From Candidatus Peregrinibacteria bacterium (lineage in GTDB: Bacteria; Patescibacteriota; Gracilibacteria; UBA1369; LOWO2-01-FULL-3): a stretch of DNA of 64,000 nucleotides. The notes beneath the pieces are model-generated. The model had not been told where the DNA came from and searched no databases. It worked only from the letters and a program-made list of their open reading frames with translations. Below are positions 31,934 through 38,264 of this stretch, one piece after another. Numbering within the stretch: position 1 is the stretch's first letter; each line of letters begins with the position of its first letter. Location of the stretch: NCBI GenBank assembly GCA_018654255.1, contig JABILX010000004.1, positions 186,001 to 250,000 of the forward strand, in the 5' to 3' direction. A program made the translations under genes and the position numbers.

Positions 31934-33301
31934 CTACGATAGAACTTCTTTTACTCCTTCCCAATCGTTCTTAACAAACAGTCTTCTAATATTCTCAATT
32001 CCCTCGTCCTCCTCCATTACAGTATTTAGTTTTTTAAGTTTATCACTCATAGAGTTCAAATTTTCCAAATCCAATTCTACTAGTAAGGCGACTAATTTTG
32101 ACAAAAGTCCCCTATCCTCTTCTCTTAATTTGTAATTTCTAGCAGAGTCTGGGCTTCCAATTAATTTCACCGCTAAACCTGAGACCAAATCATCAGGCAA
32201 TTCACCAAATTCGGTTTGTTTAGAGCTCTCTTTAATTAGATTAGTCATGAAAGCATCTACCTGCCTACCATCAATGATGACCTGTAATTCGCTGGCATCT
32301 TTTATAGGACCATGACGACCAGTGTTAGAGAAACTATCCTCTACAAAATATACAAATTTATTAGTTCTTATATCTTTTTTAGCCTTAACAACCAATGAAC
32401 AGTGATCTGTTTCTACATTAGCGACACCAATATTATTGAACTTTATGTCAAAGTTATAGCCCTCAGGAGATGTTTTTACAGCGGTAGTAACCTTTTCAAC
32501 ATCTTTCTCCTCTATCGGGACAAACCCAGCGACAATCCCCTCTTTAGCCTTCTCCTTTTCTACATAGGCAGCAAAGAGATCGACTTCCTCTTGTTCCTTC
32601 CACATCTCTTTCAATTCCTCATCGTCAGAGTTTTTTATAGCTTCCGAATAAAACTTCCTAGAACGCTCCCTATATTCTTTGTCTGAAATAGATCCTTTCT
32701 TCCATTGTCTGTAAGAAGCTATTTGATTTTTAGTCATTCGGTTCCCCAACCTCTTATTAATAACCCTGGAAGTCCGTTTATTTTTTTGATTTACAAGCAT
32801 GGTACCAACTTCAACATGTGAAGCCTCTGTGTACTTAGATAGAACCTTATTCATTCCTTCCAAGGCCTTTCGGACATCAGATTCATTTTTATAGTCAGAC
32901 TTTTTAGCTCTTAAATGCAAAAGGAATTTCTCCTTCAAAGAAGAATCCTCCATCATTTTATCTCTAACAGTCGGGGTCAAACCCTTGCCTTTAACGAAAC
33001 CATCTACAAAATCAGCATAAAAATCATCATCACTAAAGTCTTCATTTATTTGATCCAAAATCTCCTCGTCGGTATCACTAGCATCTATACCAAGAGTCTC
33101 TAATGAAACAAATGAACGAATCCCTACCCCATTCAAGATTTCCCCAACAGGAAGCTTTTTGATCCTTGATGCTTGAGACACTTCTTTTGTAGCAGCTTTC
33201 TCACGATAAATATTCTGAACATTAACAACCGACAAGCCCTCTTGCGCTTGGACTTCTTGACTTTCAAGACCATCCTCATTTTGTTCTACATCATCTGCCA
33301 T
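31934..33301 (-). CDS. Unrecognised 455-aa protein, paralog of the 33286 gene
   Basis: A soluble, acidic protein with no signal peptide or membrane segment. The middle (GSISDKEYRERSRKFY...DDEELKEMW) and the C-terminal third (NKFVYFVEDSFSN..., VIIDGRQVDAF) align with the protein encoded at 33286, so they are tandem duplicates. The C-terminal block may be the real domain. No known family recognised. Its start overlaps the upstream paralog by 16 bp. No clear Shine-Dalgarno sequence is seen. Confidence 0.6.
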   Translation of the reverse strand: MADDVEQNEDGLESQEVQAQEGLSVVNVQNIYREKAATKEVSQASRIKKLPVGEILNGVGIRSFVSLETLGIDASDTDEEILDQINEDFSDDDFYADFVDGFVKGKGLTPTVRDKMMEDSSLKEKFLLHLRAKKSDYKNESDVRKALEGMNKVLSKYTEASHVEVGTMLVNQKNKRTSRVINKRLGNRMTKNQIASYRQWKKGSISDKEYRERSRKFYSEAIKNSDDEELKEMWKEQEEVDLFAAYVEKEKAKEGIVAGFVPIEEKDVEKVTTAVKTSPEGYNFDIKFNNIGVANVETDHCSLVVKAKKDIRTNKFVYFVEDSFSNTGRHGPIKDASELQVIIDGRQVDAFMTNLIKESSKQTEFGELPDDLVSGLAVKLIGSPDSARNYKLREEDRGLLSKLVALLVELDLENLNSMSDKLKKLNTVMEEDEGIENIRRLFVKNDWEGVKEVLS

Positions 33302-34545
33302 ATATCTTTGTTATTTAACAGGGCTGTTCTTATAGTATCAAATCTCGCCTGTGTATTTAAATATCTACTCAACTCATCAATCTTAGCGCCAACATTAGTA
33401 TATTTATCATTTTTTTGAAGTAAAGAAGCGGCCAAATTGTCCAAGACTACGAAGTCATCTGAACCAAAATCAAACCCTCTCCCCTGCCCCTCCCCTAACA
33501 GTTTCAAACCAATAGATTCAATCTTCCTGTCAGAAGCTTTTCTCATCGAAGAAAAATTCTCAGAGTCAGACATCTTCCCAACCTTTTTTGTGACATAAGC
33601 ATCTATCCTCCGTGCATCAATAACACTAGGCAGATTAATTGCACTGAAAGGTCCAAAATTTTCACCTCCATTGATATACTCATCATTCACGAAATATATA
33701 AATTCACCTGTCTTTAAATCTTTTCTAACAATCAGATCCACAGAAAAATCTGCAATCTGGACCCTGGCTAGACCATCCCTACCAAACTCAACAGAATAAT
33801 TCCCATTAAATTGAGATTCAACCTCAGACTTTGCTGAAGATTGTTCTTTTGGAGATATTACTGTAGTAGCAATAAGTACAGCAGCAGTTTGAATAATAGT
33901 ATTAATAAACGTTTCCTCTATCTTTTCATCAACATTAACAGACTCCCATAACGCCATCAATTCTTCATCACCAGACAATTCGATATATCTTGCATACATC
34001 TCGTCCATTGCATCCAAATACTCTTCTTCGGAAATACTTCCTTCGAGGAATTTAGCATCAAGCTCTTTCCTTTCTCGGAAGAATTCTTCTCCAAATTCAT
34101 CAGAATTCATCAACATCATAGTAATCTTGGCCAATCTCCTTCCCCTCCTGATATTGAGAAATATTTCAGCAATACCATTGGCATTTTTGGGGTCAAAATA
34201 TTTAAATAATTCTAAGTTGAAGGCTTTTACCATTTCAGCATATTTTTTTTCCAAATCCCCCTCATCTTCAACACCAGTAAAATCTACCAAAGCAATAAAC
34301 CGATCCTGCAACTCCTTGTTGTCCAAAAGCTCTTTAACTACTTTCAAATCCAACTTTTGAGTCTTAGAAATACGATATATCAAGTTGCGATAAGCAGTAT
34401 CTCTATCAAGAATCTTTTCAGAACCTATCAAAGCACCTTCTCTGTCCGAATCAAGAACGTTGATTGCGTAAAGATTTTCAACATTAAATTTTACAAGGTC
34501 TACACTATTTGCTACCGCTAAAGAACCAATAACATCTTTCGACAT
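33286..34545 (-). CDS. Unrecognised protein, paralog of the 31934 gene
   Basis: Shares GSISEEEYLDAMDEMY...DEELMALW and GEFIYFVNDEYINGG...SVIDARRIDAY with its downstream paralog. A short hydrophobic stretch (INTIIQTAAVLIATTVIS) may be a buried helix rather than a membrane anchor. I prefer ATG 34545 (MSKDVIGSLA), which has AGGGGG five bases upstream and fits the promoter at 34714-34742. A longer frame from TTG 34725 gives 479 aa with a low-complexity N-terminus. Function unknown. Confidence 0.6.
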   Translation of the reverse strand: MSKDVIGSLAVANSVDLVKFNVENLYAINVLDSDREGALIGSEKILDRDTAYRNLIYRISKTQKLDLKVVKELLDNKELQDRFIALVDFTGVEDEGDLEKKYAEMVKAFNLELFKYFDPKNANGIAEIFLNIRRGRRLAKITMMLMNSDEFGEEFFRERKELDAKFLEGSISEEEYLDAMDEMYARYIELSGDEELMALWESVNVDEKIEETFINTIIQTAAVLIATTVISPKEQSSAKSEVESQFNGNYSVEFGRDGLARVQIADFSVDLIVRKDLKTGEFIYFVNDEYINGGENFGPFSAINLPSVIDARRIDAYVTKKVGKMSDSENFSSMRKASDRKIESIGLKLLGEGQGRGFDFGSDDFVVLDNLAASLLQKNDKYTNVGAKIDELSRYLNTQARFDTIRTALLNNKDIWQMM

Positions 34546-34713
34546 ATTCCCCCTGTCTTCTTTAGCCTCTCCCTTAATTTTATACTCCTTGATTCTATAC
34601 TCCTCTATTCTAGAAACTTCAGTACCAAAAATTTGGTTTTTCACATCAAGACTCCTATTTTTGGTAGGATTTGTGGGACTACTATTTAGAGGTATTCTTT
34701 CATTCATCATTAC

Positions 34714-34742
34714 ATTATACAACAAAAACTCCTACCAATCAA
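34714..34742 (-). promoter_or_regulatory. Internal promoter upstream of the paralog pair
   Basis: On the minus strand TTGATT (34742-34737), 17-bp spacer, TATAAT (34719-34714). Predicted start near 34707. It overlaps the stop of the 139-aa gene, so the paralog pair can be expressed independently of elp3. This position disfavours a start codon at 34725 for that message. Confidence 0.6.
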
Positions 34743-35151
34743 CCTGTAAGTCCATATCATTCATCACAGCCTCAACATCAGTATGAGTCATATCTAATAG
34801 CCCACTGGTTAACCTGAAATCCCTCCCATCATCAGATAGATCATCCGCGATTTTCTCCTCCAAAATCCCACGCGCACACCAAGCCACTCCAACTTTTTTT
34901 CTAGCGTCCTCATCTGAAGAGAAAACATCTCCTAAACCATCAAATTCACAAGACTTTCCCCTATTGTCAGAACACGTCTTGAGACAAGCAGCAATAGCCT
35001 CTCTTTGTGGCTTTTTTAACCACTTCACAATCTCGATATGACCAACAACCAAGCACAGTGCCAGCGTACCAATATGCAAACATCTAACAGCTGCACGAAA
35101 AACCTCCAACTCCCTCTTTTCATCATAATCTTGAAACTCCAAATTACCCAT
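34732..35151 (-). CDS. Unrecognised 139-aa Cys-containing protein
   Basis: A soluble helical protein with several Cys residues (RCLHIGTLALCL, ACLKTCSDNRGKSCEF, AWCARG) that might bind metal, though no classical motif is formed. It lies 2 bp downstream of elp3, so co-expression is very likely. Function unknown. Confidence 0.55.
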   Translation of the reverse strand: MGNLEFQDYDEKRELEVFRAAVRCLHIGTLALCLVVGHIEIVKWLKKPQREAIAACLKTCSDNRGKSCEFDGLGDVFSSDEDARKKVGVAWCARGILEEKIADDLSDDGRDFRLTSGLLDMTHTDVEAVMNDMDLQVDW

Positions 35152-35153
35152 TA

Positions 35154-36746
35154 CTACACATTTTTATACTGATACAATTCCCCATCATTGAAGCCCAATT
35201 TTTTATAATATTCACGGACCCCCACCCCACTGATCACAACGAGCTTAGACAAACCTTCTTGTTTTGTCAACAAAGCGACTTTCTCGATTAATTGTCTACC
35301 ATAACCCTTGTGTTGGCTCGCTTTTTTGTCTTTTCCAGATATAGAAATGTGCTCACCGAAAACATGTAATTCACGGATAACCGCAGCATCACGAAGATCG
35401 GCCATCCAATGCTTTTCACCCGAGAAATGTTGGGACGGTACTCTTAGTCGAACATAACCTATCAATTTGTCGTTTTCAACATCCTCAAAACTCACAAAAA
35501 ACTCTTTCCCAGAAGAAGACTTGTATTCTCTTACAACTAACTCAGCTTTTTTAACAACATCGCTTTTAATCTCCCTACATCTTATACATTTACATTTTTT
35601 ACCTTTTTTCTTCATTTCTTCTTGGACATATTGCCTGAGGTTAGAAACCTTACTTCCCCCAATAATACTCTCGGCCGGAATATCTCGATATAACCGAGTT
35701 ATCCTACAATACTCAGGAACTTTCTCTTTAAATTTAACAAGTAAATCAATCAACTCTTTGTCAGCATATGGTTTGTGCCCACCATCTCGATAGATTTTCT
35801 CCAAAGGAGAATAAGGAACCACCACACAAGGATATATTTTCAACCAATCAGGCTTGTATAATTCGTTATCAAAAAGCTCAGAAAACATCTCAAGGTCCTT
35901 CTTCTTGTTGCTTCCATACATATTCGGCATGAAGTGAACGTTTATCTTGAAACCAGCATCCTTGAGAAGCTTCAGAGATTCCTGCACTTCCTTAACACCA
36001 TGCCCTCTCTTGTTAAGCTTATATATATTGTCGTCCAAACACTGGACTCCCAGTTCAACCTTGGTAACCCCAAGTTTACGGAAAAATTTCAAAGACTCCT
36101 CGTCAATATAATCAGGCCTAGTCTCTATAGAAAGTCCAACGCACCTGTTATTGGCCTTCTCATTTTTTCTCTGAGCCTCATCGAGAGACCTTTCTTTCTT
36201 TCCATCACCATAATCATAATTCAACCCATTGTAGACTCCTTTTACAAAATTCCTCTGATAAGCTTTTGGGTAAAAATTAAAGGTTCCACCAGAGATAATC
36301 ATCTCAATCTTGTCGGTACGATGTCCTGTTTTTTGAAGACCTTTCAATCTAGAAACCACCTGTCTGTACGGATCAAAATCATTCAAAATAGCACGCATTA
36401 CGGCGGGCTCATTGCTCAAATAGCTTTTGGGCATATCGGGTTCCTTTGGACAATAGATGCACTGACCAGGACAAGCATAATCCTTCGTTATAACAGTGAT
36501 AGAAGCAATCCCCGAAGTACTCCGCACTCCCCTCTTTCTTATCAATTTCTCAAACCTCAAATCAGGTTCGAGAACACCTCCATCAACAAGCTCGTTGTAA
36601 GCTCTTACAAGCTCAATACTTGTTAGAGACGAGATTTTGTATTCACTCGAGTAGACGTTCTTTAATTTCTGCAAAAATCTTCTGTCAGAAATTTCATCTC
36701 TAATAGCTTGTTTAACAAATTTTTTCGCTATATGATCTATCTGCAT
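35154..36746 (-). CDS. Elp3-type tRNA U34 carboxymethylation enzyme (radical SAM + GNAT)
   Basis: Elp3 uses acetyl-CoA and a SAM radical to make cm5U at wobble uridine 34. The 530-aa protein has an N-terminal helical region and the radical-SAM CX3CX2C motif CPGQCIYC (Cys92, Cys96, Cys99), with GGTF after it. It has a Zn-type KCKCIRCREI linker and a C-terminal GNAT domain with ELHVFG, GYGRQLIEK and YYKKLGFNDG. Full-length Elp3 is standard in eukaryotes and archaea but rare in bacteria. The divergent neighbour 31 bp away is a Trm9-like methyltransferase that would complete mcm5U. No mnmE or mnmG is in this window. Confidence 0.93.
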   Translation of the reverse strand: MQIDHIAKKFVKQAIRDEISDRRFLQKLKNVYSSEYKISSLTSIELVRAYNELVDGGVLEPDLRFEKLIRKRGVRSTSGIASITVITKDYACPGQCIYCPKEPDMPKSYLSNEPAVMRAILNDFDPYRQVVSRLKGLQKTGHRTDKIEMIISGGTFNFYPKAYQRNFVKGVYNGLNYDYGDGKKERSLDEAQRKNEKANNRCVGLSIETRPDYIDEESLKFFRKLGVTKVELGVQCLDDNIYKLNKRGHGVKEVQESLKLLKDAGFKINVHFMPNMYGSNKKKDLEMFSELFDNELYKPDWLKIYPCVVVPYSPLEKIYRDGGHKPYADKELIDLLVKFKEKVPEYCRITRLYRDIPAESIIGGSKVSNLRQYVQEEMKKKGKKCKCIRCREIKSDVVKKAELVVREYKSSSGKEFFVSFEDVENDKLIGYVRLRVPSQHFSGEKHWMADLRDAAVIRELHVFGEHISISGKDKKASQHKGYGRQLIEKVALLTKQEGLSKLVVISGVGVREYYKKLGFNDGELYQYKNV

Positions 36747-36777
36747 TTTTTATTATTAAAGCTTGGGGAATTCTATC

Positions 36778-37449
36778 ATGAGAGAGAATACAGCAAAAGC
36801 AATCCTTGAAAACGTAAAAAAAACATATAGCGACATAGCAAACGATTTTTCAAAAAGCAGAAACAACAAATGGAATGAATTCGATTCATTTCTCGAATTT
36901 ATCGAAAACAAAGGCACTGTAGCTGACATTGGGTGTGGCAACGGAAGATTCTACAAATTCTTGAGAGAAAAACGAGACAGCAAGTACGTAGGAATAGACA
37001 ACAACAAAGAACTTCTCAAAGAGGCGAAACGTCTAAACAAAGCAAATTTCATCGAAGGCGACATACTCAAAATCCCATTAAAAGAAGACTCTCAAGACGT
37101 GACAGTTTGTATAGCAGCTCTACACCACATTCCATCGAAAAAACTCAAGAATCAAGCCATCGAAGAACTAGCCAGAATAACAAAACCCAAAGGATACTTA
37201 CTCCTGTCAGTATGGAACCTACTAGAGCAAAAAAAATACAAAAAATATGTTGTTAAAGCTTTTGTAAAATGGTTGTATACAATGGGCAAATTCGAAAAAA
37301 GAGGACTTTTCATCCCATGGCAAAAAGAAAGAGACAGATACTACTACGCATTCAAAGAAAGTGAACTTAAAAAAATGCTAGATAAAAAATTTAAAATCAT
37401 AAAAAAAACTAAAGGAAATAACATTGTTCTAATATGCGAGAAAAAGTAA
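36778..37449 (+). CDS. Trm9-like SAM methyltransferase (putative mcm5U34 methylase)
   Basis: A class I methyltransferase of 223 aa. The region TYSDIANDFSKSRNNKW before motif I (VADIGCGNGRF, about 48-58) is strongly reminiscent of yeast Trm9 and the ALKBH8 methylase domain. The later LFIPW, RYYYAFKESEL and C-terminal GNNIVLICEK also match that family. Trm9 methylates cm5U34 to mcm5U34 in tRNA. The gene is divergent from elp3, whose product would supply the substrate. The eukaryotic partner Trm112 is not seen. Start at ATG 36778, with GGGGA upstream. It overlaps the next gene by 16 bp. Confidence 0.8.
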   Translation: MRENTAKAILENVKKTYSDIANDFSKSRNNKWNEFDSFLEFIENKGTVADIGCGNGRFYKFLREKRDSKYVGIDNNKELLKEAKRLNKANFIEGDILKIPLKEDSQDVTVCIAALHHIPSKKLKNQAIEELARITKPKGYLLLSVWNLLEQKKYKKYVVKAFVKWLYTMGKFEKRGLFIPWQKERDRYYYAFKESELKKMLDKKFKIIKKTKGNNIVLICEKK

Positions 37450-38264
37450 AAATACTAGGAGTAAATTTCGACAAAATCACATCTAAAGATGCTTTGGAAA
37501 AAATATCAGACTGGCTTTCTCCGGGGATACATTTGAAAAAAAGACACGTTGTAGTCACGCCAAATCCAGAAATACTACTTGAAGCCCAGAAAGACGATAA
37601 ATACAGACGAATCTTGAACAAGGCAGACCTGAGCATTCCAGATGGGATAGGGGTATTATGGGCATCAAAATTCAGAAAAATCGCGAACACAAAAGACTCC
37701 AAGCTAAAAAAATGCTCAAAATGGTTCGTCAGCTTATCGATGATTCCAATCAGCAAAAGCTACATAAGAACCGAGTTGCCAGAAAGAGTGACTGGAGTGG
37801 ACCTGATGGAAAAAATATGCAAACTGGCAGAGATAAAAGGAAGTAAAGTTTTTTTACTCGGAGCGGGGAAAGGAATAGCTAGACGCACAGCTGAAAAACT
37901 AATGGAAAAATATCCAGAACTTCTAATAACTGGAGTCTATGCAGGAACCCCAAAGCAGAAACACGAAAAGAAAATACGTGAGCTAATCAACGCAAGTGAA
38001 GCCGAAGTATTATTTGTAGCATACGGAGCTCCAAACCAAGAAAAATGGATAGAAAGAAACATAAAACACATTCACACACTAAAAGTAGCTATGGGCGTTG
38101 GGGGCTCTTTTGATTTCATTTCAGGAGAAAAAAAGAGGGCACCAATCGTAATGCAAAAAACAGGACTTGAATGGCTGTACAGATTGTCTAAACAACCATC
38201 AAGAGCAAAAAGAATACTCAACGCAACAGTGGTATTCCCTATTAGAGTCTTTAAAAGAAAATAA
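37434..38264 (+). CDS. WecG/TagA/CpsF family glycosyltransferase (GT26)
   Basis: A 276-aa GT26 enzyme. Signatures are VVVTPNPEILLEAQ, DLSIPDGIGVLWAS, VFLLGAGKGIARR and VAYGAPNQEKWIERN. It would add a sugar (often N-acetylmannosamine or similar) to an undecaprenyl-linked glycan for the cell surface. It overlaps the methyltransferase gene by 16 bp and is probably co-transcribed by proximity rather than function. Confidence 0.93.
   Translation: MREKVKILGVNFDKITSKDALEKISDWLSPGIHLKKRHVVVTPNPEILLEAQKDDKYRRILNKADLSIPDGIGVLWASKFRKIANTKDSKLKKCSKWFVSLSMIPISKSYIRTELPERVTGVDLMEKICKLAEIKGSKVFLLGAGKGIARRTAEKLMEKYPELLITGVYAGTPKQKHEKKIRELINASEAEVLFVAYGAPNQEKWIERNIKHIHTLKVAMGVGGSFDFISGEKKRAPIVMQKTGLEWLYRLSKQPSRAKRILNATVVFPIRVFKRK

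Follow-up and report, generated by a model that had tools for sequence, protein, structure and literature searches.

The locus described here raises the question of whether a bacterium may place the 'eukaryotic' methyl-ester mark mcm5U34 on the wobble uridine of its tRNAs with two proteins. In the window (the whole stretch of DNA analysed, 64,000 nucleotides of contig JABILX010000004.1 from Candidatus Peregrinibacteria bacterium), a gene for an Elp3 homolog lies head to head with a methyltransferase gene, and a sequence-only reading of this DNA had taken the pair for a possible eukaryote-type wobble route. The features of the locus are as follows.

35154..36746, minus strand: elp3, predicted radical-SAM/GNAT tRNA U34 carboxymethylase, 530 aa (from TIGR01211, PDB matches and functional residues)
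36747..36777, no strand: divergent intergenic region between elp3 and the methyltransferase gene, 31 bp from ATG to ATG
36778..37449, plus strand: Trm9/ALKBH8-like methyltransferase of class I (SAM-dependent), 223 aa, proposed to methylate the carboxyl group of cm5U34 to give mcm5U34 (from profile search against the PDB, reciprocal search, tree and residues)
37434-38264, plus strand: WecG/TagA/CpsF glycosyltransferase gene, overlapping the 3' end of the methyltransferase gene by 16 nt

The gap between the two divergent genes measured exactly 31 bp, as the sequence-only reading had it, and no promoter signal above chance was found within it. The methyltransferase open reading frame was taken to run from the ATG at 36778 to the stop at 37449; its earliest possible start is a TTG at 36763, but the ATG was preferred because the letters 'GGGGA' stand about 7 nt upstream of it and because most relatives start at the aligned position. 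The head-to-head order recurs across the phylum, with gaps mostly shorter than 360 bp. Since both genes are kept across dozens of families of Patescibacteria in this same divergent order, neither can be a chance open reading frame. Downstream of elp3 (window 31934-35151, minus strand), three consecutive proteins had no Pfam match, and two of these (455 and 479 aa) resemble paralogs of each other.

The Elp3 protein matched TIGR01211 over its full length (residues 11-528) with 565.7 bits (cut-off, 350), and radical-SAM, Radical_SAM_C and GNAT domains were recognised. In the PDB it matched MinElp3 (6e-116) and DmcElp3 (1.5e-106). The cluster-binding motif was located as follows.

36450..36473, minus strand: CX3CX2C [4Fe-4S] motif of Elp3 (C92, C96, C99)

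All three cysteines were kept in 89 of 89 aligned Elp3 proteins of Patescibacteria, and each remaining functional residue in at least 88. When the residue numbering of MinElp3 was transferred to the window protein by way of the chain offsets of the PDB alignments, K146, K267, E459 and Y513 were found at the positions of MinElp3 K150, K266, Q461 and Y517, mutants of which show strongly reduced or abolished tRNA-induced acetyl-CoA hydrolysis (PMC6367351). Position 461 in MinElp3 numbering is thus Glu here, as is E386 of DmcElp3. Judged by its sequence, Elp3 is intact, and the earlier description of a homolog with an intact CX3CX2C motif and GNAT domain agrees with these results.

The identity of the methyltransferase was less easily read from family profiles. 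Its Pfam matches above the cut-off were general methyltransferase domains only, and the NCBIfam matches listed for METHYLTRANSFERASE (DVU1556, BioC, UbiE) were all below the cut-off. A family profile was built from 18 relatives. In a PDB-wide search, it matched Trm9 of Yarrowia (YlTrm9, 5cm2_Z) first (2.9e-25, 92 bits; the next match, 72 bits), and the alignment with YlTrm9 started at the TRxxPW motif and reached the C-terminus, including the RYY box, whereas most of the next matches listed covered the SAM core. With the single sequence, PH0226 came first and Trm9 second. In the reverse direction, YlTrm9 used against the own genome matched this gene only (1.9e-11). With Trm9 as a single query, all 103 family members (a count that takes in loci not all confirmed as Elp3 neighbours) scored at least 29.2 bits, and all 19 generic methyltransferases at most 27.9. 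Sequence identity to Trm9 was about 20-26%.

In the maximum likelihood tree of 70 proteins, the family, the archaeal Trm9-like proteins and YlTrm9 were split from the other methyltransferases with support of 97/82, the other side holding UbiE, BioC, CmoA, CmoB and UbiG of E. coli, PH0226 and other methyltransferases of Patescibacteria. YlTrm9 joined the archaeal Trm9-like proteins (99/93), and the bacterial family was their sister (95/89); note that one eukaryotic Trm9 represents its group in this tree and that the archaeal rows were recruited with the Patescibacteria profile. Membership of a UbiE/BioC/UbiG-type family was rejected because of this split and of the NCBIfam matches below the cut-off. 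The AF2 model from AlphaFold had a pLDDT of 93.7. With Foldseek, Trm9 was at rank 5 with the highest TMt (0.82) among the rows listed; after structural realignment it stood at rank 24 (Z 20.3, at most 2.5 below every higher row), many class I methyltransferases being level with it. Fold comparison was dropped as a means of recognising Trm9, since class I methyltransferases score alike.

As for residues, R29, H115, R241, Y243 and N271 of yeast Trm9 are required for tRNA affinity and activity (PMC5372719), and YlTrm9 has them at exactly the same distances (86 and 30 residues). These five residues align with R28, H116, R187, Y189 and N215 of the window protein, which are kept in 103, 94, 96, 77 and 97 of the 103 family members, respectively, the Y243 equivalent being substituted in roughly one family member in four. 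The positions are as follows.

36859..36861, plus strand: R28, equivalent of yeast Trm9 R29, in 103 of 103 members and not among the common residues at this place in the 19 generic methyltransferases
36925..36948, plus strand: SAM-binding motif I (DIGCGNGR; residues 50-57), with one I/L/V position as the sole variation among the 18 aligned rows
37123..37128, plus strand: H116-H117, of which H116 (94 of 103) is the equivalent of Trm9 H115
37318..37347, plus strand: W181 (IPW) to the RYY box, with R187 and Y189 as the equivalents of Trm9 R241 and Y243
37420..37422, plus strand: N215, equivalent of Trm9 N271 (N in 97 and D in 5 of 103)

The motifs that had been quoted from the letters alone were all present, and the likeness to Trm9 and the ALKBH8 methylase proposed with them was borne out by the best PDB match, the unique reciprocal match and the equivalent residues; the tree placed the protein with Trm9, not with UbiE-like enzymes. 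On this homology the enzyme is Trm9-like. We use this name, not that of a strict Trm9/ALKBH8-type member, because the Trm112 partner was not found (see below). The family also has an extra helix at about residues 152-167, which is not present in YlTrm9 by sequence alignment. In two loci of Peregrinibacteria (L072 and L084), the methyltransferase open reading frame carries an odd in-frame insertion right before SAM motif I.

The distribution of the two genes was analysed in 287 genomes of Patescibacteria, each at least 80% complete and most of them metagenome-assembled. Elp3 was above the cut-off in 104 genomes, or in 107 when three truncated genes were added. Strong methyltransferase matches (at least 87 bits) were found in 78 genomes from 41 families, and Elp3 was present in all 78; at the higher threshold of at least 95 bits the count was 76 of 76, both thresholds having been set after inspection of the score list. 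One generic paralog (in G119; 89.9 bits) exceeds the 87-bit threshold, and its genome counts anyway by way of a true member. None of the 180 genomes lacking Elp3 had a strong match (Fisher's p of about 3e-46, not corrected for phylogeny). Elp3 without a strong methyltransferase was seen in 29 genomes (family f34 and others; G056, G074, G092, G106, G145 and G188 among them). Some of these Elp3-only genomes have a weak, fast-evolved methyltransferase beside Elp3 (G237, G314), and others apparently have none. The strong methyltransferase thus occurs only with Elp3 but not vice versa, which is the pattern expected if the methyltransferase uses the product of Elp3.

Conserved adjacency, on which the two-gene reading had been made to depend, was found as well: Elp3 was divergent and within 1 kb of the strong methyltransferase in 66 of the 78 genomes, and among named contigs, which formed the second set, a divergent Elp3 stood at 61 of 73 bacterial loci. 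The latter span Peregrinibacteria, Gracilibacteria, Staskawicz-, Campbell-, Lloyd-, Portnoy-, Kuenen-, Nealson-, Magasanik-, Uhr-, Komeili- and Buchananbacteria. A scan of the contigs with a single sequence gave no relatives, and they were recovered with an alignment-based scan.

The other genes of wobble modification were then considered. Both mnmE and mnmG, for which a search had been proposed, are absent from this genome (rated 96% complete). There was no match to MnmG; for MnmE, the best match was Der/EngA, which was excluded as a candidate because its score of 519.8 bits with TIGR03594 identifies it as Der, and the remaining weak matches were far below the cut-off. MnmG is nearly absent from the phylum, being above the cut-off in 5 of the 287 genomes. 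None of these five has Elp3, but mutual exclusion of the two was rejected as evidence, since the sample is too small and, with 107 of 287 genomes positive for Elp3, chance alone would give this result in about 10% of cases. MnmA is present in the own genome with 316 bits (cut-off, 237).

Trm112, which had not been visible in the DNA at hand, was not found genome-wide either (no match to PF03966 at E ≤0.01), so that the two-gene reading survives. Among the 287 genomes, a single match above the cut-off was of stand-alone size (G176), in a genome without Elp3; for this count, PF03966 matches in frames of at least 240 aa were excluded. Trm9 of yeast requires Trm112 for its activity (PMC6382703). 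Given its absence here, the bacterial branch would be either self-sufficient or served by an unrecognised partner, and the extra helix (residues 152-167) is a possible element compensating for Trm112.

The expected U34 substrates, tRNA-Lys (UUU), tRNA-Glu (UUC), tRNA-Gln (UUG), tRNA-Arg (UCU) and tRNA-Gly (UCC), are all encoded. In the tRNA set of the genome (L148-L181), both U34 and C34 isoacceptors are present for Lys, Glu, Gln, Arg (AGR), Thr and Leu (UUR), a layout that would suit a U34 mark limiting reading to A-ending codons. For the CGN codons of Arg, tRNAs with GCG and UCG anticodons were found (L155, L158), and no A34 (ACG) tRNA-Arg was among the 33 tRNAs found, which suggests that inosine-34 may not be in use in this organism.

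From the directly observed gene content, homology, residue conservation, co-occurrence and gene order, together with the absence of MnmE/MnmG, we infer the following reactions, substrate and end product. Elp3, acting alone as in archaea, where it forms cm5U34 in vitro without other proteins (PMC5372719), would use radical SAM chemistry and acetyl-CoA to place a carboxymethyl group on C5 of U34 (cm5U34). The Trm9-like methyltransferase would then transfer the methyl group of SAM to the carboxylate of cm5U34, giving mcm5U34, and would do so without Trm112. MnmA probably thiolates the tRNAs for Lys (UUU), Glu (UUC) and Gln (UUG), giving mcm5s2U34. The route of Elp3 and the methyltransferase would thereby replace the MnmE/MnmG pathway. 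We hold this reading, i.e. carboxymethylation by Elp3, Trm112-independent esterification by the Trm9-like enzyme and probable thiolation by MnmA in place of MnmE/MnmG, with considerable confidence for this genome. Many Patescibacteria probably make the methyl-ester mark in this way, with two proteins and not with the usual bacterial machinery; that a large part of the phylum makes mcm5(s2)U by Elp3 and a Trm112-free Trm9, as a replacement for MnmE/MnmG, seems to us rather likely.

Other readings of the pair were weighed against this one. The methyltransferase might be the U34 partner of Elp3 and yet form a product other than mcm5U, by methylating another group on the product of Elp3 or another position of the anticodon loop, in which case its likeness to Trm9 would reflect shared tRNA binding. 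The low identity to Trm9, the extra helix and the variable Y243 position would fit such an enzyme, and archaea can carry other derivatives of cm5U, such as ncm5U in Thermoplasma (PMC5372719). However, the residues to which the orientation of cm5U34 in the active site of Trm9 is ascribed are kept with the right spacing, and the strong methyltransferase was never seen without Elp3; we consider a different product unlikely. The protein might instead be a generic UbiE/BioC-like enzyme, or one of a glycan pathway, tied to the WecG/TagA gene and not to Elp3. This would agree with the generic families given by NCBIfam and with the overlap of the WecG gene, which follows the methyltransferase gene in about 20 of the loci fetched, with a fusion of the two in three, but WecG is the neighbour in a minority of loci, mainly of one lineage (21, against 61 of 73 bacterial loci for Elp3), the tree and score tests place the methyltransferase with Trm9, and its tie to Elp3 at the genome level is complete. 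A generic or glycan-pathway function is accordingly very improbable.

As for the WecG matches themselves, they are placed at the end of the methyltransferase or shortly after it in the 21 fetched loci, which include most of those of Gracilibacteria and Peregrinibacteria, and the three fusions are in frame (about 500 aa; L030, L082 and L113 are listed with the WecG observation). Elp3, for its part, has long been described as a histone acetyltransferase, and it might act here mainly on proteins, or by other radical-SAM chemistry, with its neighbour modifying the same protein target. Hydrolysis of acetyl-CoA by bacterial and archaeal Elp3 requires tRNA and does not occur with peptides of histone or tubulin (PMC6367351), the residues for this tRNA-induced hydrolysis are conserved here, and the neighbour is by sequence a tRNA methyltransferase of the Trm9 type; we give a protein target next to no credence.

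Our preferred reading, the Elp3-Trm9 route to mcm5(s2)U, would, if true, add a bacterial branch to a pathway that, to our knowledge, has been regarded as restricted to eukaryotes and some archaea. Such a pair, conserved in bacteria, would account for the way in which at least some reduced genomes manage without MnmE/MnmG. The pair would also be a very simple set for rebuilding mcm5U synthesis, with Elp3 free of the Elongator scaffolds and Trm9 free of its activator, and it makes testable both Trm112-independent methylation of cm5U and the question of an ancient origin of the Elp3-Trm9 couple as against its transfer between domains. No description of a bacterial Trm9, or of Elp3 in Parcubacteria, was found in the literature searched, the coverage of which was incomplete, so that a prior description is possible. 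Clustering of elp3 and trm9 is known in Sulfolobus solfataricus and is the basis for predicting mcm5(s2)U in archaea (PMC2584109, PMC5372719); the two-gene wobble route of the sequence-only reading is supported by our sequence tests, none of its computable refuting conditions having come true, but the route is not solely eukaryotic. What is new is apparently its bacterial, two-gene and Trm112-independent form.

Compared with known systems, the MnmE/MnmG route (with MnmC or MnmL/MnmM) acts on C5 of the wobble uridine in the same tRNAs, but with unrelated enzymes and chemistry, and is absent from this genome. The yeast Trm9-Trm112 complex and the methyltransferase domain of human ALKBH8 share with the window protein the best PDB profile match, the class I fold, the five residue equivalents and the link to Elp3, whose product the enzyme would use; in contrast, the enzyme here is bacterial and about 25% identical, has the extra helix at about residues 152-167 and no RRM or AlkB domain, and comes from a genome without Trm112. 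The archaeal elp3-trm9 pair (Sulfolobus solfataricus; predicted for Haloferax volcanii) consists of the same two enzymes, clustered in Sulfolobus, without Elp1/2/4/5/6, and the archaeal Trm9-like rows group with yeast Trm9 as sister to the bacterial family. In most archaea, Trm112 is present and 2-thiolation is performed by Ncs6/Tuc1, whereas here there is no Trm112, and the bacterial MnmA stands in place of Ncs6/Tuc1. Stand-alone bacterial Elp3 is already known from Dehalococcoides mccartyi (DmcElp3). This protein and MinElp3 of Methanocaldococcus infernus resemble the window Elp3 in standing alone, in the zinc-linker cysteines and in the KAT residues, and DmcElp3 also in the CX3CX2C motif and the Glu at the E386 position; unlike in both, a Trm9-like gene consistently accompanies Elp3 here.
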